Shown here one piece after another: positions 22 through 16,503 of a stretch of DNA of 20,385 bases (position 1 is its first letter; every line of letters begins with the position of its first letter). Both the position numbers and the translations under genes were made by a program. This stretch comes from a virus. The stretch lies in IMG/VR virus record IMGVR_UViG_3300011113_000735, positions 1 through 20,385 of that record, one strand, 5' to 3'. Below the pieces are notes generated by a model. It worked only from the letters and a program-made list of their open reading frames with translations. It had not been told where the DNA came from and did not search any database.

Positions 22-22
22 G

Positions 23-178: not shown

Positions 179-192
179 CTCGCTTATAAATA

Positions 193-846: not shown

Positions 847-847
847 G

Positions 848-1535: not shown

Positions 1536-1689
1536 ATTCTTTAATTTCAAAAACATTTAAAAAATCTTCTATATTCATTTGTTTGATATGGGATGCTATT
1601 AAAATAGCATCTTCCAAGTTGATTGCTTCAAGTTTACCTTGTGGTTCTTGAGTTGAATCTAATTTGTTATAGTATACGTATAGTTTCAT
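1504..1689 (-). CDS. Small conserved-looking phage protein, 61 aa
   Basis: The 61-aa product begins MKLYVYYNKLDSTQEPQGKL, a beta-hairpin-like start, followed by NLEDAILIASHIKQMNIEDF, an amphipathic helix, and a basic tail. I do not recognise a named family; the pattern resembles small orphan proteins of T4-like phages. Its ATG at 1689 stands one base after the stop of the RmlB-like gene, and its 3' end overlaps the next gene by about 30 bases, so it is likely translated from the same transcript. Confidence 0.7.
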   Translation of the reverse strand: MKLYVYYNKLDSTQEPQGKLEAINLEDAILIASHIKQMNIEDFLNVFEIKEYERRKIQKSK

Positions 1690-1690
1690 A

Positions 1691-2587
1691 TTAGATATTA
1701 TTTGATAGCCACTCTTTAAATTTTACTGTTTGAATTTTACCTAATTCACTTTTAAATTTACTACAATCCAAAGCATATTTTCTATCGTGACCTAGTCTAT
1801 CTTCTACATATTTAAAATTTACTTCTTTTCCCAAAAGATCACTAATTATTTTTAATATTTCAACATTTTGATATCTTTCTCCAGTCCCAATATTGTAAAT
1901 TTCTTTTACTTTATCAGACATAAGCAATTTGTAAATAGCTACTGCATTATCATCTGCATGTATCCATTCTCTAACTTGCTTACCATCTCCATAAACAGGT
2001 ACTTCTAATCCGTTTTTGATTGAATGGATAATTTTTGGAACAAATTTTTCATTATGTTGGTTTTCGCCATAATTGTTACATGTACGAGTAATTAAGTATG
2101 GAAAATTATATGTTCTCCCAGCTGCTATTACTAATAAATCTGAAGCGGTTTTTGTAGCTGAGTAATATGAGCTAGCTTCTAATGGGGTTTCTTCATTTGA
2201 TTCATCTCTATTTTCTCTATCGCCATAAACTTCATCTGTTGAAATGTGTAAAAACTTTTTTAAGTTAGGGTTTTTACGAGCTACTTCTATCATGTTGTAA
2301 GTACCTTCAACATTTGATCTAACAAACGGTAAACCGTTTTTGATTGAATTATCAACATGAGATTCAGCAGCAAAATGAACTATATAGTCATATTCACCTA
2401 AATCTTCAGCAGTTATATCACAAATATCTTTTTCAATAATTGGAGTTGGTTGTTTTATATTATTTTTATTTGCTGCATAAGTTAATTTATCTACTATCAA
2501 TACTTCATGGTCTGTATTTTCGTTTAAATAATTTATAAAATGTGAACCTATAAATCCTAATCCTCCTGTTACTACTATTTTACTCAT
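1691..2587 (-). CDS. rfbB: dTDP-glucose 4,6-dehydratase (RmlB-like)
   Basis: This short-chain dehydrogenase/reductase converts dTDP-glucose to dTDP-4-keto-6-deoxyglucose in the cytoplasm, the branch point to rhamnose and to many amino-deoxy sugars. The NAD-binding GGLGFIGSH (8-16) is intact, as are AAESHVD (73-79) and T117-D118-E119 in STDEVYG, which carry the RmlB catalytic residues. So are Y142-x3-K146, TRTCNNYGENQ, and the substrate-binding DGKQVREWIHADD and DRLGHDRKYALD stretches. At 298 aa it is shorter than bacterial RmlB (about 340-360), with the losses in loops rather than motifs. Its ATG overlaps the stop of the upstream glycosyltransferase (ATGA). RmlA, RmlC and RmlD are not in the window. 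The aminotransferase and acetyltransferase at 9.6-10.8 kb could use its product. An enzyme for a different nucleotide-linked hexose is possible but less likely. Confidence 0.9.
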   Translation of the reverse strand: MSKIVVTGGLGFIGSHFINYLNENTDHEVLIVDKLTYAANKNNIKQPTPIIEKDICDITAEDLGEYDYIVHFAAESHVDNSIKNGLPFVRSNVEGTYNMIEVARKNPNLKKFLHISTDEVYGDRENRDESNEETPLEASSYYSATKTASDLLVIAAGRTYNFPYLITRTCNNYGENQHNEKFVPKIIHSIKNGLEVPVYGDGKQVREWIHADDNAVAIYKLLMSDKVKEIYNIGTGERYQNVEILKIISDLLGKEVNFKYVEDRLGHDRKYALDCSKFKSELGKIQTVKFKEWLSNNI

Positions 2588-3756
2588 ATTTTAATTAGAT
2601 TATTTTGATATTCTTCCATATGACTTATTACAACTTTAAATATGTCAATTTCAAATTCTCCTTCTTCACCACTTTCTTTTATAATACTAGGTATTTGATT
2701 TAATAATTGAAAATTTTGTTGGTTAAGTTGATTTGCATCAAATTCAATAACTATGTCATTTTCCCATTCTGGGGTGTTGTTTGCTAAGGTAAATACTCGT
2801 TTTGTTAAATCAAATGAGGTGTTTTCTTGTTCTCTGTCAATGTAAATATCAACTACATCTTGAATTTCAATATAAATTCGATCACACCAAGGTTCTAATA
2901 CCCCTAATAATTGCCCAGGACAATTTTTAACTACATACGCAACATTATATTTTGGTGAAACAATTGGTTCCATTAATGCAGTATGATTTACGTTTGAACC
3001 CCATTTACGAATAAATTCTAAGGTTGAACGATCCATGTCTGCTTTCCACTTTGCATGTCGTTCTGGGTCACCATCAAAACTTCCTGCTCCTCTACCTGTT
3101 AAATGATAAACTAATGAGTTCCAAGGTTGAATAAATTTATATCCAGCTAAGTGCATTCGGTTAAATACATCAGAATCTTCTCTGCATGAGTGTAAAATTG
3201 GGTCATGTCCACCTAATGCTATAAAATCTTCTTTATACATCATCCAAGGAGCAAATATACCATAAGTTACTTTATCATCTTCAAGGTGTTCCTCTACATA
3301 TTGATTAAATTCTTCTTTTTTAAATTCCTCAGGCCACATTCCAAAATCAAGTAAGATTTTTTCTCCATTATTTGGATGCAAAGGTGGTTCAACACGAGTT
3401 GCACACACTACTGTTTGTGGTTTAAGGTGTTGAAATGCCTTTAAATCAGCATCTTTACCTAACATCATATCAGCATGAAATATCATGAAGATATCTGTAG
3501 TGGAATGTTCAATACAATAATCATATGCTTTACCAATACCAAATAGACTTTCACCTAAATTTGGATTAACAAAATATTTTAAACTATACTCGTCTTTTAC
3601 TTGTTCTAACCATTCAACAGTTCCATCTTCATCTGAATCAACAAATACTATAATTTCATGGTCGTTTCGAGATGCATTTTCTCGAATTGAGGGAATACAA
3701 GTTTTAAGGTAGCGTAAATTTGATTTACTAGGGATGCAAAATGTTATTTTTTTCAT
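2584..3756 (-). CDS. GT2-like glycosyltransferase with C-terminal extension
   Basis: The product is 390 aa if started at the ATG at 3756, which overlaps the GmhA stop as ATGA; the longer frame from 3789 adds 11 residues inside GmhA and is not preferred. The N-terminal half is a GT-A fold: ITFCIPSKSNLRYLKTCIPS strand-helix start, FVDSDEDGT, and HADM (94-97) in the position of the metal-binding DxD. Next come CREDSDVF (191-198), typical of the acceptor/catalytic Asp region, and LVYHLTGRGAG. Residues about 260-390 form an acidic extension with no motif I know. It probably adds one sugar to a growing glycan; donor and acceptor are unknown. The region from LVYH to KWG resembles the same part of the glycosyltransferase at 11.6-12.4 kb, suggesting an old duplication. 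Confidence 0.85.
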   Translation of the reverse strand: MKKITFCIPSKSNLRYLKTCIPSIRENASRNDHEIIVFVDSDEDGTVEWLEQVKDEYSLKYFVNPNLGESLFGIGKAYDYCIEHSTTDIFMIFHADMMLGKDADLKAFQHLKPQTVVCATRVEPPLHPNNGEKILLDFGMWPEEFKKEEFNQYVEEHLEDDKVTYGIFAPWMMYKEDFIALGGHDPILHSCREDSDVFNRMHLAGYKFIQPWNSLVYHLTGRGAGSFDGDPERHAKWKADMDRSTLEFIRKWGSNVNHTALMEPIVSPKYNVAYVVKNCPGQLLGVLEPWCDRIYIEIQDVVDIYIDREQENTSFDLTKRVFTLANNTPEWENDIVIEFDANQLNQQNFQLLNQIPSIIKESGEEGEFEIDIFKVVISHMEEYQNNLIKI

Positions 3757-4253
3757 ATTACTGAGTGGAGGATTAATTCGTGAAGGCATTCTACTATGCC
3801 ATAATCTTGACTATTTACCCAAAAATGGAGTTGGGATTTTGATTCATAATTATTTTTTAATTTGTTATTTTCATTAAATCCTGATAAGGTTATTATGGAT
3901 ATTCCGTTGGTTACACAATATTCTGCCACATTAAGAATATTTTTAGAATTACCTGAGGAGGATATTAGGATAACTAAAGTTTTAGGATTAGAGAAGTGTT
4001 TTATAAATTCAGTATAAGCATTTTCCCACCCATAGTCATTAGCATAACAACTTAAACGGGCTGAATCTCCAAAGCAAATAGCTGTTTTTTTTAATGCTTT
4101 AGTATAATCCTCAGCTAAATGACAACTAATAGCGTTACTACCTCCATTACCTAAAATTATAATATCTTGAAAACTATCAATAATTTGTTTTAAATGGTTT
4201 AATTTGTTTTGATCTAATTCTTCAAAACATTTTTTATATTCTTTAATATTCAT
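3753..4253 (-). CDS. gmhA: Phosphoheptose isomerase (GmhA-like, SIS domain)
   Basis: GmhA converts sedoheptulose 7-phosphate to D-glycero-D-manno-heptose 7-phosphate, the first step of activated heptose synthesis. The 166-aa protein has the SIS-domain phosphate loop GNGGSNA (35-41) followed by E48, and the second loop SSSGNS (98-103). The C-terminal helix carries E155, H158 and H163 (YGIVECLHELILHSVI), which matches the E-x2-H pattern of GmhA metal and active sites. It is somewhat shorter than the usual 190 aa, ending right after that helix. It overlaps hddA upstream by 11 bases and the glycosyltransferase downstream by 4 bases. The pairing with an HddA-like kinase strengthens the call. Confidence 0.85.
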   Translation of the reverse strand: MNIKEYKKCFEELDQNKLNHLKQIIDSFQDIIILGNGGSNAISCHLAEDYTKALKKTAICFGDSARLSCYANDYGWENAYTEFIKHFSNPKTLVILISSSGNSKNILNVAEYCVTNGISIITLSGFNENNKLKNNYESKSQLHFWVNSQDYGIVECLHELILHSVI

Positions 4254-5202
4254 ATAAGTTTATGGTTTTTAACCCATGTTCTGAAATATGGATTTGTTGA
4301 GAATTATTATATGAAGAAGAAATATAATTTCCTAATCCTTTTTGAGTAAAAATAAGAAAATAACCTCCATTGCCTGCACCTAATAATTTATGGGATAATA
4401 TATGTTTATCGGAAGCTATTTTTTTGTCTAGTTCAACTAAATTCAAATTTTCACATATATAAGGAGATGTTTGTTTTTTATTTTCCCAAGTACGAGAAAT
4501 TACAGAATTAAAACTATTAATATCATTCTGTTGAATTGCTATTTCAAGATCTTTTACATCCTCAAGCAATGTAACTGATTTAGTAACATCTATACTTTTT
4601 AGGATATCTGTTGAACTTCTTAATACCCCAGTGTATATCAGATACATATCCATCTGGTTAAATATATTAGTGCTTAAGTATCTAATTTCAGGATCTTGGG
4701 TCTGATAAAATTTAATTTTTTTTAATCCGCCCATGCTACCATAAAAATCTTGTTGGCCAACTAAAGGATTAAAAGTTTTTTCTATTTTTTCTGCTAATTT
4801 ACAAATTTCAAATTCTGTAATACAATCGTTACGAAGTGCATATATTGATTTAATTAAAGCTAACAAATATGCTGAGGAAGATGCTAATCCAGAACCTGCT
4901 GAAAATACATCAGAGGTCATAAAGCAATTAAGATGCTCAACATTAAGGTGTTTAAAACAGTTACGAATTAATTCATTTTCAATTTGATCAATATTATTTA
5001 CTGATTCTCTTTTAGAATAATTAATAATATATTTTTTGTCTAATGAAGTGGCTCCAAATATATCTTGATGTAATGTAATATATGTGTGTAAATTTGAAGC
5101 AAAACTAATTACAGACCCAGTTCCATATTTTTCTAAAAATTTAGGATGATCAGTTGAACCTCCAACTAAAGATATTCTTAAAGGACATGCTGTTACTATC
5201 AT
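4243..5202 (-). CDS. hddA: D-glycero-D-manno-heptose 7-phosphate kinase (HddA-like GHMP kinase)
   Basis: The 319-aa protein has the three GHMP-kinase signatures: PLRISLVGGSTD (7-18), the ATP-binding AGSGLASSSA (102-111) and LLGAGNGGYF (273-282). GQQDFYGSMGG (149-159) supplies the usual active-site Asp (D152). HddA phosphorylates heptose 7-phosphate at C1 to the alpha-1,7-bisphosphate on the route to GDP-heptose. The neighbouring gmhA-like gene supplies the substrate, which is the main reason to prefer HddA over galactokinase- or fucokinase-like relatives. The later enzymes GmhB and HddC are not in the window. The ATG is coupled by ATGA to the upstream glycosyltransferase. Base composition here is extremely AT-rich. 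Confidence 0.85.
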   Translation of the reverse strand: MIVTACPLRISLVGGSTDHPKFLEKYGTGSVISFASNLHTYITLHQDIFGATSLDKKYIINYSKRESVNNIDQIENELIRNCFKHLNVEHLNCFMTSDVFSAGSGLASSSAYLLALIKSIYALRNDCITEFEICKLAEKIEKTFNPLVGQQDFYGSMGGLKKIKFYQTQDPEIRYLSTNIFNQMDMYLIYTGVLRSSTDILKSIDVTKSVTLLEDVKDLEIAIQQNDINSFNSVISRTWENKKQTSPYICENLNLVELDKKIASDKHILSHKLLGAGNGGYFLIFTQKGLGNYISSSYNNSQQIHISEHGLKTINLYEY

Positions 5203-6065
5203 AATAATTTTCTTAAGCTATTAGATGCAACTACTCTCATACTTTGATCAAACTTATTAAACTTTTCATAAGATTCTTTATCTCTAGTGTGGTTAGTTCG
5301 TTTTTTAGGATGGCCTGTATTATGACCTTTTAAATAATATGATATATTATATAATGGGATTTTTTTAATTTCACAATACATAAAGAAATATGAATCTTCT
5401 CCACACATATGTAATTCAGGATCAATAAAAGGAGTAGGCATTTTTGGACTAAGGCATACTAAAGCTCCATCTCCTTTATAATATGATGATTGTTTAATTT
5501 CATGCATGTTCTCAAATGATTCATTAAATATATTTAATTCATTTAAAGATAATGTTCCTTCTCCAGTAACAAATTTATTGTTAATTGCGCGAACTTGTTC
5601 TAAACTAAGATTCTGAAAAGCTTCATGTTCTGTTTGAGTCCATGATTCATCCCACATTTTCTTTTGTTTAATAGTAACAATAAACGGATAATTTTGTGCA
5701 GATGCAAATATGCTTTCAATATACCCAAAATATGTAATGGGAACTAAACAGTCCGATTCCCCCCAAACTGTAATGTTGTCAGGGTCGTAACATTCTCTTC
5801 TCCAATCTCCTACATTATAAAATGTATCTTCATTAGTTTTCCATGTTATTTCAGATTGCTTAACTAAATCATCTTCTAGTAATTCAATAAACATATCATC
5901 AATACTTTTATTAATTGGAGTATCAAAATGAGTTTGTTTATTAAAACATAATTTAATTTTAACTGGTAGATTTGTGTATTTTAGGGCTTCTTTAATAGAT
6001 TGAATAGTTTCTAATGCCATCTCAGTTTCAAACCATGTAACATGCATTTGATATAATATATACAT
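5199..6065 (-). CDS. Putative GT-A-type glycosyltransferase, 288 aa
   Basis: The product starts MYILYQMHVTWFETEM and has the architecture of GT-A enzymes. An N-terminal strand-helix unit ends in E103-S-D (WGESDCLVP), in place of the DxD metal site. A middle region follows, then C221-G-E-D (HMCGEDSYFF) where GT2 enzymes keep the acceptor-side Asp. A tail with YLKGHNTGHPKKR resembles the HxxG-type end of related enzymes. The nucleotide-sugar donor cannot be read. The ATG overlaps the stop of the FkbM gene by one base (TAATG). The fold assignment is by motif order only and overall similarity to known families is weak. Confidence 0.7.
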   Translation of the reverse strand: MYILYQMHVTWFETEMALETIQSIKEALKYTNLPVKIKLCFNKQTHFDTPINKSIDDMFIELLEDDLVKQSEITWKTNEDTFYNVGDWRRECYDPDNITVWGESDCLVPITYFGYIESIFASAQNYPFIVTIKQKKMWDESWTQTEHEAFQNLSLEQVRAINNKFVTGEGTLSLNELNIFNESFENMHEIKQSSYYKGDGALVCLSPKMPTPFIDPELHMCGEDSYFFMYCEIKKIPLYNISYYLKGHNTGHPKKRTNHTRDKESYEKFNKFDQSMRVVASNSLRKLL

Positions 6066-6754
6066 TATTCACAAATTAAAAGGTAATTATCATCAATATC
6101 TTGCATTGCTATTTTATATCCAAACTCATTGATTAAAAACTGAGTTCCGCTATTTTCTCTATCTTTACTATATATGAAATCTTCAACCCATATTATAGGT
6201 TTATTTATTTTGATTAATTCATATGCACCTTTAAACACCGATAACTCATGGTTTTCTACGTCTATTTTGATAAAACTAATATTTTCAAAATTAAAGATAT
6301 CTAATGGTTGGGTAATTGTATAAATTTTTGGTAAAGAACTAATATGGGTCCCACACATAGTATCTTCACCTTCATTGTCCCCATAATATTTTGCTAATCT
6401 ACTGCAGCCTGGGCTTGGGGCAAAATGTACAAATTCTACTAATTCCATTGCTTCCCCAACACAACATGATATTGGAGTAATATTATTAATAGTCATTACA
6501 TTAGTTGCTAATTTTGAATAATTAAATGGATTACCTTCTATAGAAAAAATTGGTCTTTCTGGGTAATAGTAATTGAACATTACTGAATGATTACCAATAT
6601 TAGCTCCAATATCTAGAAATGTACCTTGATTAGGGATCAATGATTTAAATTTAATAAAAATATCTTCTTCATAAAATTCGCCTCGTCGGATATGATCTGA
6701 TGGGGTGTCTCCTTCATGGTATAAACTGGTGAATACGGATGTTTTATTGCTCAT
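6065..6754 (-). CDS. FkbM-family SAM-dependent methyltransferase
   Basis: This class I methyltransferase is of the FkbM (Methyltransf_21) type, which O-methylates sugars or other small groups. The SAM-binding motif I is LDIGANIGNH (47-56), with acidic E73 after the second strand (SIEGNPFN), and FIKIDVENHELSVFKG (161-176) is the family hallmark. The 229-aa length is normal. Set between glycosyltransferases, it most likely methylates a sugar in the glycan made by this operon, often a terminal capping step. The start at 6754 is two bases after the fucosyltransferase stop. A cluster of cysteines (97, 98, 117, 134) is unusual but not on known catalytic positions. Confidence 0.88.
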   Translation of the reverse strand: MSNKTSVFTSLYHEGDTPSDHIRRGEFYEEDIFIKFKSLIPNQGTFLDIGANIGNHSVMFNYYYPERPIFSIEGNPFNYSKLATNVMTINNITPISCCVGEAMELVEFVHFAPSPGCSRLAKYYGDNEGEDTMCGTHISSLPKIYTITQPLDIFNFENISFIKIDVENHELSVFKGAYELIKINKPIIWVEDFIYSKDRENSGTQFLINEFGYKIAMQDIDDNYLLICE

Positions 6755-6756
6755 AA

Positions 6757-7566
6757 TTAATTAAACATATTTGGGGTTAAATGATAATCGTGTGAAACTA
6801 TGGTATGATTTTGAATTATCCAATCTTTATAATATAATCCTTTAGTATCTATATTAGCATTACTTGGTCCAAACCATGGGTTAGGGGTAACTATAATTCC
6901 ATTATTTTGGTTTAAATATGCTCCCCACCACGCAAATGTACTATTAGATAGTATTAGGTGTTTCATTTTACTCATTAAAAATAATTGAGTTCCAATAGAA
7001 TCTTGAACATAATTTACCTCAGGACCAAAAACAGATTTACACCATTCTAAATCATCTGAAAAGATAAATACTTGATCAATGTTGTTTTGAAAATGGGTAT
7101 TAAGGACTTCTTGGTAATATGGGATATCTAATACACAGTGGTTATGTTGTAACATTAAATAGTCACCACGTCTAACACTAATTCCTAAACTATTTTTAGA
7201 TATGTTATATTTAGATAATGATTGTGTAACATCATCTGAAGGGGTAAAATATTCAGTTAATAAAAGTTCTTTTACATCTTCAAAATATTCCCATGATTGA
7301 AAAAAACCACTTATTTTTAAATTATCTTTTGGCTCAATATCACAGTATTCAAAAGACTTTTCATTATGTTCAAATTCAGCAGTGAATTCTCCTCTATTAA
7401 ATGAATATTTAAACATACTTAAATCTACAGAAATATCACCTCTATGCCCAGCATGAGTAAATTCAGGTAAAATAAAATCTACATTTAACTTTTTAGATAA
7501 AGATATTAAAGTTGCTATTTGGAATAAATTGTTTCCTAAACGACCATGAAAATTACATGCTATCAT
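6757..7566 (-). CDS. GT11 family alpha-1,2-fucosyltransferase-like
   Basis: The 269-aa protein shows the family-11 signatures: G8-R-L-G-N-N-L-F-Q at the N-terminus, VRRGDY (131-136) for GDP-fucose binding, and the C-terminal LSNSTFAWWGAYLN (206-219). Length is near the usual 280-300. Known members add L-fucose from GDP-fucose to galactose in O-antigens and human-type glycans. The family motif HxRRGDY reads SxRRGDY here, so the conserved His is Ser130, which may alter activity or donor choice. It sits between the FkbM and the TylF/MycE-like methyltransferase genes and is ATGA-coupled to the latter. No GDP-fucose synthesis genes are present, so the donor would come from the host or elsewhere in the genome. 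Confidence 0.88.
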   Translation of the reverse strand: MIACNFHGRLGNNLFQIATLISLSKKLNVDFILPEFTHAGHRGDISVDLSMFKYSFNRGEFTAEFEHNEKSFEYCDIEPKDNLKISGFFQSWEYFEDVKELLLTEYFTPSDDVTQSLSKYNISKNSLGISVRRGDYLMLQHNHCVLDIPYYQEVLNTHFQNNIDQVFIFSDDLEWCKSVFGPEVNYVQDSIGTQLFLMSKMKHLILSNSTFAWWGAYLNQNNGIIVTPNPWFGPSNANIDTKGLYYKDWIIQNHTIVSHDYHLTPNMFN

Positions 7567-8207
7567 AAACTATTTTCTTTTTTAGATATTACTAATATGC
7601 TTTTATAAAAATGAATATAATCTACGTTTCTTTCATAGTAATCTAAATACTGGCCATTTATTTCTTTATACCCACAAAAACTTTTTCCATTTAAGTTTAT
7701 TGAATCTGCTAAATTTTTAAAATAATTCATTCCTGTAATATGGTAATCATCCCATACACTTTGAGGTCTATAAGAAGTATGCATATCTTCTACAAAATAT
7801 AGACCACCAGGAGTTAACCGAGGAAATAGGGTTTCAAAAGATACAATTTGTTGCTTCCAAGAATGTCCTCCATCATCTAAAATTACTTCAAAATGACCAT
7901 ATTGATTAAAGACATCATTTAAAAACTTTTTATCGGTTTGATCCCCAATATGAATATCAATTCTTTCTTCTTCATATTGTTTACATCTAGGGTCAATATC
8001 TAAAGCAACAATATTTGCTTTAGGAAAGTATTCTTTCCACATTTTAACAGATGCTCCATCAAACACCCCAATTTCTAGCAAATTAAATTCTATATCTCTA
8101 TATTGTTCCAAATATAAACTATACCTATCAGTATACATGTGCCCATCTGGGGCTTTATCTGTTTTGTATTTGGTAGCTAATTCATTTAATGTCATAATTT
8201 TCTCCAT
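7563..8207 (-). CDS. Class I methyltransferase, TylF/MycE (macrocin O-methyltransferase)-like
   Basis: The protein contains LLEIGVFDGAS (43-53) as SAM motif I, D70 in VALDIDP, DDGGHSW (111-117) and GGLYFVEDMHTSY (134-146). This is the pattern of metal-dependent sugar O-methyltransferases such as TylF and MycE and of related CmcI-type proteins. The opening TDKAPDGHMYTDRYSLYLEQ is also typical. Two starts are possible: 8207 (214 aa) or Met5 at 8195, the latter preceded by GGAG seven bases upstream, one of the few Shine-Dalgarno-like strings here, though it may be chance. Likely substrate is a deoxysugar in the glycan. It overlaps the upstream glycosyltransferase and is ATGA-coupled to the fucosyltransferase. 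Confidence 0.85.
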   Translation of the reverse strand: MEKIMTLNELATKYKTDKAPDGHMYTDRYSLYLEQYRDIEFNLLEIGVFDGASVKMWKEYFPKANIVALDIDPRCKQYEEERIDIHIGDQTDKKFLNDVFNQYGHFEVILDDGGHSWKQQIVSFETLFPRLTPGGLYFVEDMHTSYRPQSVWDDYHITGMNYFKNLADSINLNGKSFCGYKEINGQYLDYYERNVDYIHFYKSILVISKKENSL

Positions 8208-8907
8208 ATTGTCTTAAGTTTAAATATAATGAATTAAGTTCAGATTTCCAAAAATACTGATGCATATTTTGATCTGCTTTTTGGCAAAATTCACTTACTC
8301 CGATATCGATTTTATTTTCTTTAAATGTTAAAGAATTCATATGAGCTATAGTATTTGTATCAGATACTATAGTATTTAATCCTTCTTGCTCTGAAATACA
8401 CCCAGCATAAAAATCTAATCCCCATCCATAAACCAATTCGTCAGGGAAGTGTTTAATTTTTTCTAGAATATCTCGTCTGAGTAAAGGGCACTGAAAGTCA
8501 ATCCATTTTACTTTACGTAAACCTTTCCCCCAATTCCACATTTGTTTCCAATGACATTGTTCCATTGAAGCATTTATAACTGATGGGGAATAAACAGCAG
8601 CATCTGATTCTTTTGCTTCACGTAATGAAGTAGTTAAGAATGAAGGGCCGTGAAATACCAAATCATTGTTTAAAAAGTATAAATAGTCATGGTCTGTTGA
8701 AAGAAAATAATCTAGAACAACATTAAAACCACCTCCAAAAAATATATTTTCTTCTAATTGGTGTGTTGTTGATTGAGCTAAAGATTCTTTTGAACCATTG
8801 TCTACTACCATTAATTCACATTGTGAAAATAATGGGTCTCGTTTTAATTGGTTTACTAAATTATCTGTCCATTGAGGAAGATTGTGATTAAGTGTTGCTA
8901 TTAACAT
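8182..8907 (-). CDS. GT2-like glycosyltransferase, 241 aa
   Basis: The short GT-A protein starts directly with the first nucleotide-binding strand (MLIATLNHNLPQWTDNL). It continues with VVDNGS (34-39), the glycine-rich FFGGGFN that resembles rhamnosyltransferase-type GT2 enzymes, and NNDLVF (80-85) as the DxD equivalent. The C-terminal half has DFQCPLLRRDIL and WGLDFYAG, the latter placing an Asp where GT2 enzymes have their catalytic base. At 241 aa it is a minimal enzyme with no membrane segment, so it is likely soluble. It abuts the next upstream gene with no spacing. Donor unknown. Confidence 0.85.
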   Translation of the reverse strand: MLIATLNHNLPQWTDNLVNQLKRDPLFSQCELMVVDNGSKESLAQSTTHQLEENIFFGGGFNVVLDYFLSTDHDYLYFLNNDLVFHGPSFLTTSLREAKESDAAVYSPSVINASMEQCHWKQMWNWGKGLRKVKWIDFQCPLLRRDILEKIKHFPDELVYGWGLDFYAGCISEQEGLNTIVSDTNTIAHMNSLTFKENKIDIGVSEFCQKADQNMHQYFWKSELNSLYLNLRQYGENYDIK

Positions 8908-9597
8908 TTATATTAAGTTATTTATCTGTTTCCAATTAATTGTAGGTGATATTAATCCTTCCATACAATGTGTTGATAATCCTGGGATTGGGGTTAGTAC
9001 AAATCTATTTTTATTAGAGGTTAAATATAAAAATTTATTATGATCTCCAGATATAGTAGTATGTTCATTGTAATCTTCTTCAAACATTTGTTTTGAAATA
9101 ACAAAACTTCCACAAGTGCTAGGAGTCGTTCTCCAGTGATGAGTACTTGAAACAAATATTTTTGAAACTAAATCATCATACATTGGTAAAAAATACTTGT
9201 CATTATGATCATATAAAGAAATATAATTTAATCCTTGAAATGTTGAAAATAATTCAGTTATTTTTTCTACCCAATTTTCAACATGCAAATAATCATTTTC
9301 TAAAAAATATATTAAATCTTTTTCTTCAATTAAAGTTTCTTTAGCTATTTTCCAAGTTTCCCAAAAAGATATTTGATCTGATTTTGCATCTATAGTATGT
9401 AAAGTATATTTATCTTGGTATTTTTTTACAAAATTATTTTCAATGTTTCCATCCATTATTAAATGGAGATCAACATTTTTACCTTCTATAGTATTAAGAA
9501 GATTTATAAAACACTTTTCAAAATCAAACCATTCTGGACGATTTTTATAATCAGAACCTTCTATATTATAGTGTCTATAAAATATATGAATTTTCAT
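8908..9597 (-). CDS. Putative GT-A-type glycosyltransferase, 229 aa
   Basis: The N-terminus (MKIHIFYRHYNIEGSDYKNR) and the order of elements suggest a GT-A fold. HLIMDGNIENN occupies the second strand, YFLENDYLH (97-105) the acidic metal-binding turn, TPSTCGSFVISK the acceptor loop and SGDHNKF a possible catalytic Asp. I do not recognise a specific CAZy family and the call rests on motif order plus position among glycosyltransferases. The stop abuts the next gene downstream and its start abuts the acetyltransferase stop. Two plus-strand frames over this gene are shadows created by its high AT content. Confidence 0.7.
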   Translation of the reverse strand: MKIHIFYRHYNIEGSDYKNRPEWFDFEKCFINLLNTIEGKNVDLHLIMDGNIENNFVKKYQDKYTLHTIDAKSDQISFWETWKIAKETLIEEKDLIYFLENDYLHVENWVEKITELFSTFQGLNYISLYDHNDKYFLPMYDDLVSKIFVSSTHHWRTTPSTCGSFVISKQMFEEDYNEHTTISGDHNKFLYLTSNKNRFVLTPIPGLSTHCMEGLISPTINWKQINNLI

Positions 9598-10176
9598 TTA
9601 AATTATTTTTTTAGCAGGAGTACCAACATATACCCCAGTTTCGTTAATATCTTTAACAACACATGAGTTCATTCCAATAGTAGATGAACTATGAACACTT
9701 AATTTTTCTTTAATTGATGAATTAGTACCTACATAAACACAATCATATATTGTTACATTACCTGATACTATAGCTCCTGGCATAGCGCTGAAATAATCTC
9801 CTATTATTGTATCATGTCCTATGTGGTTTGCTCTGTTAAGTAGGGTATGTTTACCTAATTTAATATTTGTGGTTAAAATACTATATGCACCAATAAAACT
9901 ACCTTCTCCAATTTCAATATTGTCATCTAGGATTAGGGCTGTTGGATGAATATAGGTAAAATAAATAGTTTCTTTAGGTAACTTTTGAACAACATCAAAC
10001 CTACTCTTACTATCCCCGATGGCCACCATCATATAGTGAGTGGTAGGATTAAATTCAGATATTGGTTTGGCTACATCATTAGTATACTCATCGTCAACAT
10101 AAAATTCAACTTTTTCTCCTATTTGAGCTGCTACCTCTCTAGCATGGCCTCCATAACCATATAAAGCTAATTTCAT
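9598..10176 (-). CDS. PglD/NeuD-type sugar O- or N-acetyltransferase
   Basis: The 192-aa protein has the two-part PglD design. An N-terminal Rossmann-like half has GYGGHAREV (7-15) and binds the nucleotide sugar. From about residue 77 (HPTA) onward runs a left-handed beta-helix of hexapeptide repeats with N117-H-I-G-H121-D, the conserved histidine that acts as general base. The end GVYVGTPAKKI is the family C-terminus. Such enzymes acetylate UDP-4-amino sugars (PglD), dTDP-4-amino sugars or sialic acids (NeuD). It is ATGA-coupled to the aminotransferase gene before it, so N-acetylation of the amino sugar made there is the most economical reading. Confidence 0.87.
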   Translation of the reverse strand: MKLALYGYGGHAREVAAQIGEKVEFYVDDEYTNDVAKPISEFNPTTHYMMVAIGDSKSRFDVVQKLPKETIYFTYIHPTALILDDNIEIGEGSFIGAYSILTTNIKLGKHTLLNRANHIGHDTIIGDYFSAMPGAIVSGNVTIYDCVYVGTNSSIKEKLSVHSSSTIGMNSCVVKDINETGVYVGTPAKKII

Positions 10177-10814
10177 GACCTATTTGCTTTTGTATAAACT
10201 TCAAACTTAGATAGGTCTGGGTATGGGAGTTCTAAATCTTCATTGTGTTTAGGGGTTCCATCTACATTATAAAATTGATTCATAAGAAGTAACCCACGAG
10301 TAGCTAATTCGGGCATCATATAAAAATTCCATCCCAACATGTCAAAATGATCATCGTGGTAAGAACATTCACGTCTTCCACTATATCTTGCCCTTTTAAA
10401 CCAAAGATAAGCTTCATAATTATCAGTTAAAATAGCTCCACCTTTAGATAATTTAAAATGTTTGTATGGACCAGTAAACGAAATGCACATATGAGTTCCT
10501 GGCTTGTACATATCAGCTGTAAAGCATAAAGCTGAATCCCAAATGTTGGTGGGTTCAAGTTGGTATGCTCCTTTTAATGTTTTTCCTTTAACAGATTTAA
10601 ATTTAACTTTTGCCCCAGCATGGATTATTTCACATGGAACAGATGGATAAGTACGAGATGGTATTGTAATTTCTTCACCACATACCTTTTCATACATTAA
10701 AGCTAAAAATAGAGCATTTGATTGATTGTCTACTGTTATTACATAAGGAGCTCCTGTATAGTCTGAGAGTGCTTTTTCAAAATCTTCTGTTATTTTATAA
10801 ATTCCGTTAGCCAT
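10173..10814 (-). CDS. Truncated-looking DegT/DnrJ/EryC1 (sugar aminotransferase) family protein
   Basis: The fold and motifs are those of PLP-dependent sugar aminotransferases. A Gly/Asn-rich substrate region (TVDNQSNALFLAL, 28-40) leads to Asp93 in IWDSAL, the PLP-ring aspartate. S112-F-T-G-P-Y-K118 follows, with the lysine seven residues before GGAILTD as in the family. Then comes LGWNFYMMPELA, matching the LGxNxRMxxLxA segment. At 213 aa it is little more than half the normal 370-400. The whole C-terminal small domain is missing, and the next gene starts in an ATGA overlap, so no frameshifted remainder exists. It may be an active minimal enzyme, need a partner, or be non-catalytic. A 4-keto-6-deoxy sugar, such as the RmlB product, is the likely substrate. 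Confidence 0.78.
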   Translation of the reverse strand: MANGIYKITEDFEKALSDYTGAPYVITVDNQSNALFLALMYEKVCGEEITIPSRTYPSVPCEIIHAGAKVKFKSVKGKTLKGAYQLEPTNIWDSALCFTADMYKPGTHMCISFTGPYKHFKLSKGGAILTDNYEAYLWFKRARYSGRRECSYHDDHFDMLGWNFYMMPELATRGLLLMNQFYNVDGTPKHNEDLELPYPDLSKFEVYTKANRS

Positions 10815-10817
10815 ATA

Positions 10818-11552
10818 TTAAAGATTATATTTGTTTTTTACAGTTTTAAATGTATAATCATTTATAAAGGTTTTCCCGTTAAATGGTCTGCTAAATTCTT
10901 CTTCAACTAAAGATTTCCAATCCCCTCTATCTCCAGCATGCCCCCAATTACTTACTTTGTTTAACATTTGTTCTTTAGTACGTACCCATGAATAGTGATC
11001 TATAACAGGATTATTAATATCAGTATAGTGTTGTTTAGGGGAGCATCTAAAATAAATTTCTCTCCCTCCAGGTTCAAGATGTAATTGTTTTGCTATACTA
11101 GCTCGAGTCATAACAGTATTATATTCAGGGCCTGATTGGTATATGGGTTCTCTCCAGTACCAATATCCTGCTATTTTTATACAATCATGGTTTAGGTATT
11201 CTTTTGATTGAATCCATTTGGTGAATTTATCAACATCAACTATTTCATCAATATCAATATATAATATATACTCACATTCATTTGATATTTCTTGAGTAAC
11301 TAAATATCTTCCCATTGCTTCCCAATACCATGGAGATTCATTAGGATGCCAATCAATGTTGTAAAAGTTAACTAAATTATTGTTTTTAAAACTATTTATA
11401 CTTTTATTAAGTAATTCATGATTTTCTTCATCGCCATTCCACATATGAGAATATGTAACAACATGACATCGTATATTACATTTAATTAAGTTTGATATAC
11501 AAGTATCAAAAAATCTATAATCATTTGTAGAGTATAATATAACTGCTTCCAT
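10818..11552 (-). CDS. GT-A-type glycosyltransferase, 244 aa
   Basis: The protein opens MEAVILYSTNDYRFFDTCIS and has a clear DxD-type metal site, YILYIDIDEIVD (95-106), after a helix with Trp/Tyr residues (SPWYWEAMGRYL). Later come WYWREPIYQSG and DHYSWVRTKEQM. The general pattern recalls the GT92/GT17-like and WcaA-like proteins that act on surface polysaccharides, but I cannot name the subfamily. There is no signal peptide or membrane helix. Its ATG overlaps the upstream stop by one base (TAATG), and it leaves three bases to the aminotransferase downstream. Confidence 0.8.
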   Translation of the reverse strand: MEAVILYSTNDYRFFDTCISNLIKCNIRCHVVTYSHMWNGDEENHELLNKSINSFKNNNLVNFYNIDWHPNESPWYWEAMGRYLVTQEISNECEYILYIDIDEIVDVDKFTKWIQSKEYLNHDCIKIAGYWYWREPIYQSGPEYNTVMTRASIAKQLHLEPGGREIYFRCSPKQHYTDINNPVIDHYSWVRTKEQMLNKVSNWGHAGDRGDWKSLVEEEFSRPFNGKTFINDYTFKTVKNKYNL

Positions 11553-12409
11553 TAATTTATTCCTTTTATCATTTCATACTCATCAAATATAGGCATTTTT
11601 CCCCATTTTTCCAACCACTTTTTTGCATTTTCAGCTTCTGCTTTTCTTTGACGTTCTGAAGAGTGTCCATTATTTTCTTCTAATCTGTGGCTTCCTCTAG
11701 CTCCAAAATGCCATACTAAAGAAGAAGTAGGTAGTATAAATCTTACTCCGTGTTGAAGCATTCGTAAAAATAAGTCCATGTCATCCCAACTTGTTGGAGC
11801 AAACCGTGGATCATTTCCCCCTACTTCATCCCAAACAGATTTTTTAACTAAACCAGATACACCTTCACCTTTTGGAATTTCAATATCTTTGTTTATTCTA
11901 ATAAAATCTTCAGCCCATGCCTCAAAGTAATCAGCGTCAAAATCATGATAGTATGCTCCAAACATATTAGGAGGGACAATTACAGTACCTGGTCTTTGGG
12001 ATGGGTTATTAAACATGTTTGGTTCTACACGATGTGAATTTACCCAAAGTTTTTCATTTGAGTATTTTTCATGTATATCCATTAGTGCTTTATCCCAGTT
12101 TTTAGTTACATAAAAATCTGAATGTAAAAACATAATGTATTCTGTTTTAACATGTTCAGCACATATATTCATTCCACCTCCAATACCTCTAACTTGAACA
12201 TTCTCAGGTTCAACAAGCAAAGTTAAATTATATTTGTAACTATTTTCAAATAACCATTCATTTGTCCCATCAGTACAATTTTCAGCATGTATTATAAACG
12301 GAGCATCTTTATAATAGCTATTTTTTCTAACAGATTTAATAGCTAATTTAAGATAAGGAAGGTTATTGTATGTTGAAATACAAAATGTTAAAGGGTTAGA
12401 TTGTATCAT
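11552..12409 (-). CDS. GT2-like glycosyltransferase, 285 aa
   Basis: I choose the ATG at 12409 (MIQSNPLTFCISTYNNLPYL). The longer frame from 12463 adds 18 residues that lie wholly inside the preceding gene and do not look like a GT2 start. Visible features are the ISTYNN opening strand, FLHSDF (95-99) as the DxD site, EGVSGLVKK, WDDMDLFLRM (208-217) with the catalytic-type acidic cluster, and LVWHFGARGS (231-240). The end KKWLEKWG matches the 2.6-3.8 kb glycosyltransferase (RKWG after LVYHLTGRGAG), which marks the two as paralogues. Donor and acceptor are unknown. Confidence 0.86.
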   Translation of the reverse strand: MIQSNPLTFCISTYNNLPYLKLAIKSVRKNSYYKDAPFIIHAENCTDGTNEWLFENSYKYNLTLLVEPENVQVRGIGGGMNICAEHVKTEYIMFLHSDFYVTKNWDKALMDIHEKYSNEKLWVNSHRVEPNMFNNPSQRPGTVIVPPNMFGAYYHDFDADYFEAWAEDFIRINKDIEIPKGEGVSGLVKKSVWDEVGGNDPRFAPTSWDDMDLFLRMLQHGVRFILPTSSLVWHFGARGSHRLEENNGHSSERQRKAEAENAKKWLEKWGKMPIFDEYEMIKGIN

Positions 12410-13019
12410 ATAAATTATTTTGTTTTTCTTGTCGTTCAATTGTTTTTGGATGATATAAAGCAAAATCTTCTACATCTGGTATAGATGTGTATGTTTTAAA
12501 TCCATATAGACGCTCGTGTACTTTATTTACCCATACAATTTCCGGCTTGTTCTTCCAAATACGCCATTGATAATCAGGCCAGTTAACCCAACCAGCATCG
12601 TTTACTCTCCATCCCCATTTTGCAATGTGTTCGGGAGTTAAACCTTCTACTGTGTTTACTCGAGGAACTAGAAAAACATCAATTTCATCATTTTCTTCTA
12701 ATACATCAGGTAAAACATCAATCAGATTTTCGTTTGGAATTTCATCTGCATCAATTTGGAAAATATAATCGCCATTACAAAAACTGGTTAATTTGTTTTT
12801 CCAGTCTGCAAAGTGGCGATCAAATTTTCCTTTATGCCATGAAAACTCTCCATTTATGGAGTGGGTGCGAAGAAAATTCTCCACTTCGGGGTCACCATTT
12901 GCTTCATCAAATAAAATCACTATGTTGTCTTGTACACGTTTGTGTTGAAGCAAAAAGTTCACTAAACGTTGAATTTCAATAAATTCGTTACAGACTGTGA
13001 TTGCATAACTAATTTTCAT
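12396..13019 (-). CDS. GT2-like glycosyltransferase (WaaE-like), 207 aa
   Basis: MKISYAITVCNEFIEIQRLV is a standard GT2 first strand. FDEANGDP follows, then the characteristic KFDRHFADWKN and FQIDADEIP (87-95), the DxD site. WPDYQWRIWKN and NKVHERL near residues 150-175 resemble WaaE-type enzymes, which transfer glucose or a related sugar to lipopolysaccharide core. The protein is short and soluble-looking. It starts six bases after the stop of the 154-aa gene and its stop overlaps the next start by 14 bases. The acceptor need not be lipopolysaccharide in a phage setting. Confidence 0.85.
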   Translation of the reverse strand: MKISYAITVCNEFIEIQRLVNFLLQHKRVQDNIVILFDEANGDPEVENFLRTHSINGEFSWHKGKFDRHFADWKNKLTSFCNGDYIFQIDADEIPNENLIDVLPDVLEENDEIDVFLVPRVNTVEGLTPEHIAKWGWRVNDAGWVNWPDYQWRIWKNKPEIVWVNKVHERLYGFKTYTSIPDVEDFALYHPKTIERQEKQNNLYDTI

Positions 13020-13025
13020 AAATCT

Positions 13026-13490
13026 CTATTCAGGTAATATTCCAATATAAGAAAGGGCTTCAATATAATCACGCTCTTTAAACATTTTCATGTTTTTCAT
13101 ATCCATCTTATATTTCATAAATTCTCCTGGTTTACCTGGGATAGGGTGTTTTTCTCTGTCTTCTTCAGGGATTTCAATTGCTTTAACAGCAGCCCATCCC
13201 CAACTTGAAATATCTGGGCCATTTGCAAATATCATACCTTGTTCTTGGTTGTTGATAGTATTTGGAAGCCAAATTAAACCTGTTTCAGGATCGGTCCAAG
13301 CTAAATCCTTGTACAATTCAGGTAACGTTTCCATTTGTTGTTTATAAAACTCATGGTCTTCGGTCATAAACGAGTTTGTCCAAAATCCACAAGATAAACT
13401 CATGTAATTGTATACTTCAGGGGCAACTTGTACTTTATAGCACAAGTCACCTCCTGATTTGGGGCAGTTAATTATTTCTTCGTGTTGCAT
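13026..13490 (-). CDS. Unrecognised 154-aa protein embedded in the glycan island
   Basis: The protein is not recognised. It starts MQHEEIINCPKSGGDLCYKV, with C9-P and C17, and has one more Cys at 34 (LSCGFWTNSFM), which might bind a metal. The middle contains AWTDPETGLIWLPNTINNQEQGM and DISSWGWAAVKAIEIPEEDREKHP, which read like beta-rich surfaces. The C-terminus is charged and Met-rich (KMDMKNMKMFKERD). It sits between a GT4 gene (TAATG overlap) and a GT2 gene (six-base gap), so it is co-transcribed with glycosyltransferases but need not act on glycans. A zinc-binding accessory or a conserved phage orphan are the two options I would weigh. Confidence 0.75.
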   Translation of the reverse strand: MQHEEIINCPKSGGDLCYKVQVAPEVYNYMSLSCGFWTNSFMTEDHEFYKQQMETLPELYKDLAWTDPETGLIWLPNTINNQEQGMIFANGPDISSWGWAAVKAIEIPEEDREKHPIPGKPGEFMKYKMDMKNMKMFKERDYIEALSYIGILPE

Positions 13491-14782
13491 TAGGCTTCTA
13501 CTTTTTTAAGTTTTGGTAATTCAATTTTTTTCAACTTGGGTAATTGCAATTGAACCTGTTTTGGAAACTCAGGTATTTTATTTTCAAATAATTTACCTAA
13601 TTTTTCTTTCATTGCTTCAAATGAAAATTTGTTACGTGATTGAAAACCTTGTCGTTTTGCTTTTTCAGCATATCCTTTATAGTTTTCAAATACATCTCTT
13701 AAATAGCTTCCTACATGACCTGTATCTACACTAAACCACTCTGCTTCTTGCATCAACATATTGTTTGCTGCTGAAGGATGTACTTTAGTCATTTGGCCTG
13801 GTAAAAGTGTAACAAATTCAGGATTTAAATAGTCAACATGACCACTCCAATTTGTTGTAATAATCGGTTTGTTTACAAGTGAAAATTCAAGTAATGGACG
13901 ACCAAAACCTTCTCCTTTAGTTAAATTAACCATTGCTTTAACTTTAGGATGATTATAAATTTCGTTCATTTCAACATCAGTAAATTCACCATGTAACAAA
14001 TAAATGTTTGGTAGGTTAGTTGATTTTACTGTTGCTTTAATAGCTTTAATACGTTTGATTAATTCATCTCTATCCATGTAAGAAGATCCTACAGTAGATG
14101 TTTTTAAAATCAAAGCAGGTTTTTTAGATTTATTTTTAAACGTTTCATAAAACGCTTTTACTAGCAATCCTACATTTTTTCTATCTTCACCTAAATTACC
14201 TTGCATCCAATGCCCTACAAACAAATAAGCAAATTCTTCTTTTACATTAGATAAATTAAATGTTGATTTTACTGGTTTATAGGTTTCAATATTGGCACCT
14301 TCAAAAATTACTTCACTATCACCTTTCCATTCAATAACTCCTACTGTTTGGTTTGTTTGTTGATCTCGTTTTTCAAATTTACTTTCTTTAAGTACTTTAA
14401 TAGTATGTTCAGAAGAACCTAAAATCAAATTCATACGACCACAACCTTCAATCCATTCAGCTGGTGCTACTGTTGTTTCAATTCCAGCTGTACATCCAAT
14501 GTTGTATTTTCCTACTGGTTGGAATTCATTTGGAACTGTAATTTGCATCCAAATTTCAGGTTGTGATGGTAATTGGGGTTGGTTTAATAAATGTTTTGCT
14601 AAAAATTCCCATTCTGGATTGTTTTTGATAAATCCAAATGGGGTGCTTCCCCATCGTTGAGGTAAGATTTTTACATCATATTTATCTAGTTCAATAATCG
14701 CTTTAACGATATCGCGAGAACGTGCTCCATATCCTGAATATGTGTCAATGGGGCAACTTATTACAAATACTGGTTTACTCAT
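13490..14782 (-). CDS. GT4-family (GT-B fold) glycosyltransferase, 430 aa
   Basis: The N-terminal Rossmann domain begins PVFVISCPIDTYSGYGARSR, with the glycine-rich acceptor loop. The C-terminal domain contains LFVGHWMQGN, a strand-turn with R201-K-N, and the donor-binding E291-GFGRPLL-E299 (E-x7-E) followed by NKPIITTNWSGH, the GT4 hallmark. The last 20 residues repeat a basic LPKLKK(I/V)E unit, also visible as an imperfect DNA repeat. The basic tail could help membrane or nucleic-acid association. The start at 14782 lies six bases after the preceding stop, with no Shine-Dalgarno. A retaining transferase on a sugar nucleotide is expected; the sugar is unknown. Confidence 0.9.
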   Translation of the reverse strand: MSKPVFVISCPIDTYSGYGARSRDIVKAIIELDKYDVKILPQRWGSTPFGFIKNNPEWEFLAKHLLNQPQLPSQPEIWMQITVPNEFQPVGKYNIGCTAGIETTVAPAEWIEGCGRMNLILGSSEHTIKVLKESKFEKRDQQTNQTVGVIEWKGDSEVIFEGANIETYKPVKSTFNLSNVKEEFAYLFVGHWMQGNLGEDRKNVGLLVKAFYETFKNKSKKPALILKTSTVGSSYMDRDELIKRIKAIKATVKSTNLPNIYLLHGEFTDVEMNEIYNHPKVKAMVNLTKGEGFGRPLLEFSLVNKPIITTNWSGHVDYLNPEFVTLLPGQMTKVHPSAANNMLMQEAEWFSVDTGHVGSYLRDVFENYKGYAEKAKRQGFQSRNKFSFEAMKEKLGKLFENKIPEFPKQVQLQLPKLKKIELPKLKKVEA

Positions 14783-14788
14783 GGTTTC

Positions 14789-16228
14789 TTAATATACAAA
14801 TTCGTGATCAATTGTGTCTTCTTTAATTTCATTAACGTTGATTAGCTCATATTTTTCTCGCGGAATCCACGTGTCAAATAATTTATCTATCGCGTGAATT
14901 GCTCTAACCCCCATATGCTCTGCTGTTAATCCTGCTTCATTTACAGCCCAATGTCTTCCTACTTTACCAAGATCTTTTCTTGTTTCTCTACCTAGAGCAT
15001 ACACTTCAGAAATTCGTGCTGCTGCATCTTCAGCATTACATCTGTCATCCCAAATATAAGGTGTTTTAGGTGAACCTTGAATTGATCGGTTTGTTGGATA
15101 AACCGGAAACGCCCATGAACCATGGTTTTTGTAACGGCCAGTGTGGTTTGAAGGAATTTTAGGAGTTGGTGTAAACCAATTTCCATATTCATCTTCAAAA
15201 CGCATTTGATCTTGCATTCCACCTGTTACGTTTGCTATAATTACAGTTCCTGCTAAAATTGCTTCTGTTAACGACAATCCCCAACCTTCATTTGATGTCA
15301 ATAAAATTTGAGCATCTGCAATGTTATAAAGTTGGTTTAACTGTTTGTTGTCTAACTTGTTTGTTGAAAAATAAATTGCTTTAGGATATTTTGAAAACAA
15401 TACTTTTCTAACTGCTTCTAAATCTGTTCCATGTTCGCTTACAATTTCGGTGTGCATTATCATAGCACATTTATCTGCTTTTTCTTTTGGCAGCGTATCT
15501 AAAAATAACCTAAAAGCTAACATTGTATCCGGAATTTGCTTACGTCTAATGTTTCTTGAATTAAAAAACACTACAAAATCCTTTTCATCGTTTCCAAAAA
15601 TTTGATTTTTAAATTCTTTAAGTTCTTTTAATTCACCCTCTTTTTCAATCGGATAATACATTTCATGGTTTAATCCATGAGGAACATAGTGAATCACTTT
15701 GTTTTTAGCTTTTTCACCTAAAACAAGCTCATTAATTAATTTTGTTTGTTTTGAAATTGCTAACAATGCATCACACGACTCGTAAAATGCTTTATTGTAC
15801 AACGGTGCCGGATAATCATCCCAGATGTTCAAATAAATGATTGGCATTTCTTGTCTAATCTCATTTTCAATCATAAACAACCATTCAAAATACCTTGGAT
15901 CGGTAATTAACATGATTGCATCTGGTTTTTCAATTTGAATCAACTGGCGGATTAAATCTGGGTTTCCATAACCGTCAACAGGATATAGAAAAACAGAAGC
16001 ATCTGTCAAACCTGTGTTTGTATTAGTGTCGGTGGAAATATCAAATCGTTTTCCTTTTTCGGGGTGATTTATTGCTCCCGCAATGTTAACCCAATTGAAA
16101 TGTTGGGCTGTGTTTAAAACTAATTCGCGTGCTACTGTTGCTACACCGGAGTGTACTCGAATGTCATCACAAATTAGCATGATTTTTTTCCGCTCATTCT
16201 GCGGTAGATACTTAAAACTTGAATTCAT
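14789..16228 (-). CDS. GT4-family (GT-B fold) glycosyltransferase, 479 aa
   Basis: This is the first gene of the glycan operon. IMLICDDIRVHSGVATVARE (16-35) is the GT-B first strand and acceptor loop. LAISKQT and VPHGLNHEMYYP follow as in GT4 enzymes, and FFNSRNIRRKQ gives the Arg/Lys phosphate contacts. E314-GWGLSLT-E322 is the donor-binding E-x7-E motif, followed by GTVIIANVTGGMQD. The length is greater than usual because of a Trp/Tyr-rich insert (about 350-400). The ATG at 16228 is preceded by an A/T-rich leader without Shine-Dalgarno. A candidate TAnnTTTG element stands 29-36 bases upstream. Confidence 0.9.
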   Translation of the reverse strand: MNSSFKYLPQNERKKIMLICDDIRVHSGVATVARELVLNTAQHFNWVNIAGAINHPEKGKRFDISTDTNTNTGLTDASVFLYPVDGYGNPDLIRQLIQIEKPDAIMLITDPRYFEWLFMIENEIRQEMPIIYLNIWDDYPAPLYNKAFYESCDALLAISKQTKLINELVLGEKAKNKVIHYVPHGLNHEMYYPIEKEGELKELKEFKNQIFGNDEKDFVVFFNSRNIRRKQIPDTMLAFRLFLDTLPKEKADKCAMIMHTEIVSEHGTDLEAVRKVLFSKYPKAIYFSTNKLDNKQLNQLYNIADAQILLTSNEGWGLSLTEAILAGTVIIANVTGGMQDQMRFEDEYGNWFTPTPKIPSNHTGRYKNHGSWAFPVYPTNRSIQGSPKTPYIWDDRCNAEDAAARISEVYALGRETRKDLGKVGRHWAVNEAGLTAEHMGVRAIHAIDKLFDTWIPREKYELINVNEIKEDTIDHEFVY

Positions 16229-16256: not shown

Positions 16257-16264
16257 CAAATTTA
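16257..16264 (-). promoter_or_regulatory. Possible Bacteroidetes-type -7 element
   Basis: On the minus strand this reads TAAATTTG, matching the TAnnTTTG -7 box of Bacteroidetes vegetative promoters, and it lies just ahead of the first glycan gene. No TTG or TTTG stands at the expected 17-23 base distance upstream, and the element overlaps the stop of the ribbon-helix-helix gene, so chance is likely. It is listed because it is the only such box I found in an intergenic position before an operon-like block. Confidence 0.2.
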
Positions 16265-16459
16265 TTCTTCGCTTTCAAAGCTTAGATTATTATGGTTGTG
16301 GATTTGTTTTCTAAAGTTTTCATCTGTTAAATAAAGGTGAACTGCTCGTTCACTTAGTTTTTGAAAAGAAAATTTACGTTTAATACACTCTACTTTAAAT
16401 TGTTCAAACAGATCTTTGTCTAGTTTGACGCTTGTTAACTGTTGATTTTTATCACTCAT
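16262..16459 (-). CDS. Arc/MetJ-type ribbon-helix-helix protein, 65 aa
   Basis: The order is a short polar start, a strand (LTSVKLD, 8-14), helix 1 (KDLFEQFKVECIKRKF) and helix 2 (SFQKLSERAVHLYLTD), then an acidic tail. This is the ribbon-helix-helix fold, in which paired strands from a dimer enter the DNA major groove. Family members are small repressors, often of their own gene. The 43-base gap before it contains short palindromes that could be its site. It lies between the nuclease and the glycan operon and may control one of them. The tail also recalls antitoxins, but no toxin partner is present. Confidence 0.75.
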   Translation of the reverse strand: MSDKNQQLTSVKLDKDLFEQFKVECIKRKFSFQKLSERAVHLYLTDENFRKQIHNHNNLSFESEE

Positions 16460-16481
16460 ATGTTTTTAATTTAATATTATC

Positions 16482-16503
16482 GTATATACATATGGTAGTA
16501 TAT
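16482..16503 (-). promoter_or_regulatory. Palindromic candidate operator upstream of the ribbon-helix-helix gene
   Basis: The short gap contains GTATATAC (16482-16489) directly followed by CATATG (16489-16494) and then TAGTATA (16497-16503). Adjacent small palindromes are the kind of site bound by Arc- and MetJ-like dimers. The minus strand also has GATAAT nearby as a possible -10 box, without a convincing -35. The sequence is very A/T-rich, so such palindromes occur easily. Confidence 0.25.

Follow-up and report, generated by a model that had tools for sequence, protein, structure and literature searches.

The virus record IMGVR_UViG_3300011113_000735 of IMG/VR, analysed over its whole length of 20,385 nt (hereafter the window), has no larger parent record and is a fragment of its own genome. 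At positions 1691–16228 it carries an island of 18 contiguous open reading frames (ORFs) on the minus strand, which in hundreds of related viruses opens with the same four genes and continues with sugar genes that are swapped almost without restriction. This arrangement suggests a sugar coat specific to each virus, probably on the proteins of its particle. With moderate confidence, we read the island as a phage-encoded pathway of cytoplasmic glycosylation, which would equip a virion protein with a glycan of fixed inner and variable outer part.

Relatives of GT4b, the second glycosyltransferase of the island, are encoded in no fewer than 590 viral-contig stretches. Comparison of the best 80 of these, environmental contigs that may be incomplete and of which some are near-duplicates, revealed the block exonuclease–Arc-like–GT4a–GT4b–U154–GT2a in nearly every locus of sufficient length, with the w1504, w1149, DksA and HNH genes forming the downstream boundary. 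3′ of GT2a, gene content changed almost completely between loci. For pairs of loci with 85–95% identical GT4b, 36 of 632 cargo genes (6%) had a counterpart of ≥50% identity at any position of the other locus, vs. 482 of 799 upstream genes (60%). The cargo consisted mostly of glycan machinery, e.g. GT2 enzymes, epimerases, GDP-mannose dehydratase, RmlD, DegT, FkbM and other methyltransferases, and NeuB.

Among the genomes of 84,980 species, a GT4a profile retrieved only five contigs, all from metagenome assemblies and all encoding GT4a, GT4b and U154; the initiation module therefore looks phage-specific. The contigs sit in assemblies labelled Woesearchaeota, Pelagibacter, Flavobacteriaceae or uncultured bacteria, and probably represent phage sequence that was binned with bacteria or archaea. 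Of nine contigs selected through their capsid gene, irrespective of sugar genes, five encoded GT4a, and the three of at least 150 kb all encoded GT4a plus U154. GT4b adjoined U154 in each of 85 loci (80 from U154 scans and five contigs from genome assemblies), the 80 being the closest matches, so that more distant U154 homologues may exist elsewhere. The fold of U154 was predicted confidently (mean predicted local distance difference test score, 92), and none of the tests made in the analysis recognised it as a glycosyltransferase or other transferase. Solved structures yielded nothing significant (best E of 0.31 by sequence and 0.62 by Foldseek; VIA Z ≤4.2), and the single match among viral models was one uncharacterised phage protein.

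Among the 760 island proteins with a length of 100 residues or more, a single one had predicted membrane segments; its gene, from one locus, directly precedes the flank. The simple hydropathy scan used here found nine segments in Wzx and six in Wzy of the Escherichia coli K-12 cluster, included as a control. The initiating transferase (PF02397) and flippase (PF01943) were found in none of 11 large phage records, with positive controls that included a Bacteroides. Bacterial Wzx/Wzy O-antigen loci resemble the island in their conserved ends and hypervariable glycosyltransferase and sugar genes, but the island differs in lacking the initiating transferase, the flippase and membrane proteins. A polysaccharide exported in Wzx/Wzy fashion is therefore unlikely, and assignment of the island as an O-antigen or capsule locus, which would call for both families, is not supported.

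A first-pass annotation, made from the sequence alone, had described the island as 18 consecutive coupled minus-strand genes within a T4-like phage genome, and both statements proved correct. Junctions between neighbouring ORFs measured –37 to +6 bases, and the operon-like packing is hence real. Phage genes bracket the island, namely those for clamp-loader gp62, a PD-(D/E)XK exonuclease, the Arc-like protein, a DksA-like zinc finger and an HNH endonuclease, and the same order recurs in independent records, ruling out a bacterial contig or misassembly devoid of flanking phage genes, a finding that the first-pass annotation had named as fatal to its view. Affiliation with T4-like (Immutovirus-like) phages rests on gp62 in the window and on gp20, gp23 and sheath genes in a syntenic relative, as the genome from which the window stems has its structural genes beyond the fragment. 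This relative, Flavobacterium phage vB_FspM_immuto (Immutovirus; hereafter immuto), is the closest cultured one and holds an equivalent island in the same place (locus 49172–59988). Shared with the window are the exonuclease, a small gene, two GT4 genes, a U154 homologue, GT2, variable genes, a short DegT gene (mini-DegT), a PglD-like gene, an epimerase, another GT2, and the DksA-like and HNH genes; the middle genes differ (a full-length aminotransferase and other transferases), and no gene of the immuto island is annotated as GT11, GmhA or HddA. The immuto genome also encodes a T4-type tube. A related, reduced island occurs in Microcystis phage Mel-JY01. Megablast of window positions 1–12000 against cultured phages gave no match, and our literature search found no paper on the island of the window or on that of immuto.

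The features of the window are compiled in Table 1. Pfam supports seven glycosyltransferases: two GT4, four GT2 (that at 8182–8907 just under the cut-off) and one GT11. An eighth, U229, is predicted to adopt a GT-A fold (Foldseek E 1e-7; VIA-align Z 16.4, 3.0 Å over 189 residues) and has no Pfam match. The ten glycosyltransferases announced by the first-pass annotation were thus slightly optimistic, because the remaining two (5199–6065 and 10818–11552), plausible members of the set, have DxD/ED-type motifs as their evidence; its two methyltransferases (FkbM and Methyltransf_24) were recovered. GT2b, which opens the variable cargo, more likely starts at the ATG at 12409 than at the TTG at 12463. 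Mini-DegT forms of 195–217 amino acids (aa), compared with ~370 aa for the full family, recur in ten loci, of which eight contain a PglD-like gene as well, and retain the DSA and lysine/GGAI regions.

The two precursor pathways postulated for the island are recognisable (RmlB, mini-DegT and acetyltransferase; GmhA-like and HddA-like enzymes) and both partial: RmlA, GmhB and HddC are absent from the island, as is GDP-fucose synthesis despite the presence of GT11. Host nucleotide sugars are therefore needed. GmhB and HddC were likewise not recognised beside the HddA-like gene in three other loci, judged by gene order and sequence starts. That the island encodes everything required for a long heteroglycan was accordingly too strong a claim, as sugar activation is incomplete and a polymerase, carrier-initiating transferase and flippase are missing.

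Table 1. Features of the window in the direction of transcription. NCBIfam assignments (dehydratase, acetyltransferase, HddA-like, GmhA-like) do not reach the curated thresholds of the respective models.
Feature	Coordinates	Strand	Evidence
PD-(D/E)XK exonuclease (EXO), conserved upstream neighbour	16503..17438	-	PF12705 1.8e-24; phrog_69; 81/83 loci
Arc-like (ribbon-helix-helix) small protein, first conserved small gene before glycan operon	16262..16459	-	Weak phrog_3180/582 matches; 75 loci
GT4a, GT-B glycosyltransferase, first island gene	14789..16228	-	PF00534 2e-10; phrog_2170; PDB profile 3oy2
GT4b, GT-B glycosyltransferase	13490..14782	-	phrog_2170 2.3e-17; PF13692 weak
U154, conserved protein without assigned function, with GT4b in every locus checked	13026..13490	-	Fold prediction; locus comparison
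GT2a, last conserved glycosyltransferase	12396..13019	-	PF00535 5.4e-5; 68 loci
GT2b glycosyltransferase, start of variable cargo	11552..12409	-	PF00535 1.3e-12
Putative glycosyltransferase	10818..11552	-	DIDE motif only; no family match at E 10
Mini-DegT putative sugar aminotransferase (213 aa), without the family's C-terminal domain	10173..10814	-	PF01041 2.8e-14, residues 7-80
NeuD/PglD/VioB-type sugar N-acetyltransferase	9598..10176	-	TIGR03570 1.9e-46
U229, GT-A fold glycosyltransferase without family match	8908..9597	-	Predicted structure
GT2-like glycosyltransferase	8182..8907	-	PF00535 1.5e-4, just below cut-off
Methyltransferase (Methyltransf_24)	7563..8207	-	PF13578 7.2e-6
GT11 (fucosyltransferase family)	6757..7566	-	PF01531 1.7e-27
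FkbM methyltransferase	6065..6754	-	PF05050 1.1e-13; TIGR01444 above cut-off
Putative glycosyltransferase	5199..6065	-	ESD and GED motifs only; no family match at E 10
GHMP kinase, HddA-like (heptose-7-phosphate kinase)	4243..5202	-	NF049969 8e-23; PDB 4n3o 8e-19
SIS-domain isomerase, GmhA-like	3753..4253	-	TIGR00441 2.2e-17; PDB phosphoheptose isomerases
GT2 glycosyltransferase, 401 aa	2584..3789	-	PF00535 1.8e-12
RmlB-like dTDP-glucose 4,6-dehydratase	1691..2587	-	TIGR01181 6.7e-98; PDB 2hun 4e-70
Conserved downstream flank bounding the island (w1504, w1149, DksA-like, HNH)	193..1689	-	Family matches; synteny

Upstream of the island, a terminator scan located a strong terminator-like stem (17481–17452) that precedes the exonuclease gene. 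The Arc-like protein is probably a regulator, and the gap between the exonuclease stop and its gene (16460–16502) holds a conserved AT-rich element, CATATGTATATACG / TATATATTTATATAC, which is possibly its operator and recurs in this gap in ~70 loci. The Bacteroidota motif TAnnTTTG was considered as a promoter of GT4a (20 of 72 loci vs. 2.7 expected) and dropped, as it is not general and the loci are related; we claim no promoter. Further upstream, the adjoining proteins encoded at 17669–18025 and 18267–19154 share the N-terminal motif LRMQML(A/S)G(I/V)ITES(E/Q)YK and fall into one family cluster, of which several loci hold more than one copy.

In the pathway that we favour, the initiation module of GT4a, GT4b, U154 and GT2a would build a common inner oligosaccharide on a soluble, phage-encoded acceptor. 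A virion protein is the most likely candidate, for example that of a tail fibre or a head decoration, and U154 would itself be the acceptor, or else an adaptor or a partner of the enzymes. The exchangeable cargo (GT2 enzymes, the GT-A enzyme, GT11, enzymes for an acetamido-dideoxyhexose and a heptose, and the two methyltransferases) would add and cap a strain-specific outer part, for which the host would supply dTDP-glucose, GDP-fucose and heptose intermediates. Selection on surface recognition, be it by the host receptor, grazers, competing phages or host defence, may keep this outer part variable.

Several points weigh against such a pathway. We infer the acceptor, the glycan with the order of its sugars, and the function of the island from genes alone. 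GT4a has its best PDB profile match in the chlorovirus glycosyltransferase B736L (3oy2, 2.8e-10), which counts in favour of the pathway, but this homology is generic for GT4. The island sits among replication genes, and the T4 late-promoter consensus TATAAATA had four matches where 4.9 were expected, with no excess at the island. Lipid A-core glycosyltransferases are likewise soluble, and the lack of membrane proteins hence does not exclude a host-surface product.

The first-pass annotation had offered three possible acceptors, i.e. capsid or tail-fibre proteins, phage DNA and the host surface, of which a virion protein is the best supported, by elimination. Our preference for a phage protein stems from the contrast between a fixed, phage-specific initiation module and a variable outer part, a pattern also described for the capsid glycans of chloroviruses. 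The gp101 tail spike of immuto (L084:25824–28985) contains serine- and threonine-rich repeats of the SASYATTASY type, these two residues making up 52% over 60 positions, and by its sequence is a candidate glycan acceptor. More tentatively, we propose that a widespread T4-like phage group runs its own protein glycosylation without a lipid carrier, with a phage-specific initiation module, U154 as acceptor or glycosyltransferase partner, exchangeable outer-sugar cassettes and a virion-glycan ‘serotype’ for each phage; such a system would parallel bacterial O-antigen loci, except that assembly takes place in the cytoplasm. If true, phage particles would bear serotype-like glycans relevant to receptor binding and to recognition by hosts, grazers and immune systems, and many glycosyltransferases could be drawn from the islands.

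Alternatively, the enzymes might act during infection at the inner leaflet, where they would extend or remodel a lipid-linked glycan of the host, be it the lipid A-core or a different one; relying on host exporters, they would thereby block superinfection. A role at the host surface has been proposed for pelagimyophages (PMC7029224) and for cyanophages and jumbo phages (PMC7824862), the lipid A-core is accessible to soluble GT4 and GT2 enzymes, and the surrounding replication genes also speak for it. We nevertheless consider this rather unlikely: besides the missing initiating transferase and flippase in the 11 records, an initiation module that is fixed, phage-specific and accompanied by a partner protein of its own points to a phage acceptor, and exclusion has no obvious need for hypervariable outer parts. 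For the host surface as acceptor, O-antigen-style export is disfavoured while extension of the lipid A-core may still take place. It is improbable that the island makes a free or carrier-bound sugar compound, such as a secondary metabolite or signalling molecule, or is largely drifting stuffer DNA, as raised for cyanophage clusters (PMC3037559); mini-DegT and the missing pathway steps could mean erosion, but the frames are open throughout, the initiation module is strictly conserved, and each near-complete relative holds one island.

As for DNA, ThyA-family enzymes were absent in seven of 11 phage records (four of them 155–166 kb) and C5-cytosine methylases in 11 of 12, counts that come from related phage records, as the window's own genome is a 20-kb fragment. 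These routes to the usual acceptor bases therefore appear closed to those phages; a TET/JBP search was uninformative, its control being silent. Even though T4-like phages glycosylate their DNA, other phages carry multi-enzyme hypermodification clusters and immuto is annotated with a deazaguanine DNA-modification pathway, these absences, together with a pathway length and variability unlike known DNA sugars, render a complex hypermodification of phage DNA very improbable.

Precedents for virion glycosylation exist in several viruses. Mycobacteriophage Che8 encodes glycosyltransferases and is reported to carry glycans on its capsid proteins (PMC11256854, citing Freeman 2023). Such a system differs from the island in comprising a few glycosyltransferases. 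We know of neither sugar-precursor enzymes nor a hypervariable island in Che8-type capsid glycosylation. Chlorovirus capsid glycans combine a conserved core with virus-specific outer sugars (PMC9614988), an inner/outer pattern that the fixed module and variable cargo fit when judged from the encoded enzymes, gene conservation not being equal to glycan structure. Chloroviruses and mimiviruses further resemble the island in virus-encoded glycosyltransferases and sugar-nucleotide enzymes, methylated sugars and the use of some host nucleotide sugars, and mimivirus has a comparable viosamine-type sugar (PMC9614988). However, these are unrelated viruses of eukaryotic hosts, and the chlorovirus acceptor is the capsid protein, whereas a virion protein is the putative acceptor here.

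The nearest known kind are the ‘lipopolysaccharide (LPS)’ clusters of cyanophages, which the island matches as a contiguous set of glycosyltransferase and nucleotide-sugar enzyme genes in a T4-like phage; the first-pass annotation had rightly noted this resemblance and the excess over the one or two glucosyltransferases of T4 for its DNA. Published readings of the cyanophage clusters are modification of the host surface or, possibly, stuffer DNA (PMC3037559, PMC7824862, PMC7029224), an O-chain of the host LPS being proposed as product, not demonstrated, in PMC7824862 and PMC7029224. The cluster of the T4-like cyanophage P-SSM2 (193428–205500) likewise comprises ~15 soluble epimerases, glycosyltransferases and methyltransferases, with homologues of the epimerase and, at 28% identity, of the window's GT11; unlike the window, it contains a 2-oxoglutarate oxygenase and adjoins hli genes. 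By tblastn, no relatives of GT4b or U154 were found in Prochlorococcus and Synechococcus cyanophages. The same hydropathy scan detected no membrane protein in the P-SSM2 cluster (L262:28429–40501), and given the common homologues, the self-decoration argument may therefore extend to it. Phage ‘LPS’ clusters are usually explained as host-surface tools; the anatomy described here points to phage self-decoration, and the usual reading of the P-SSM2 cluster deserves an equal re-test.

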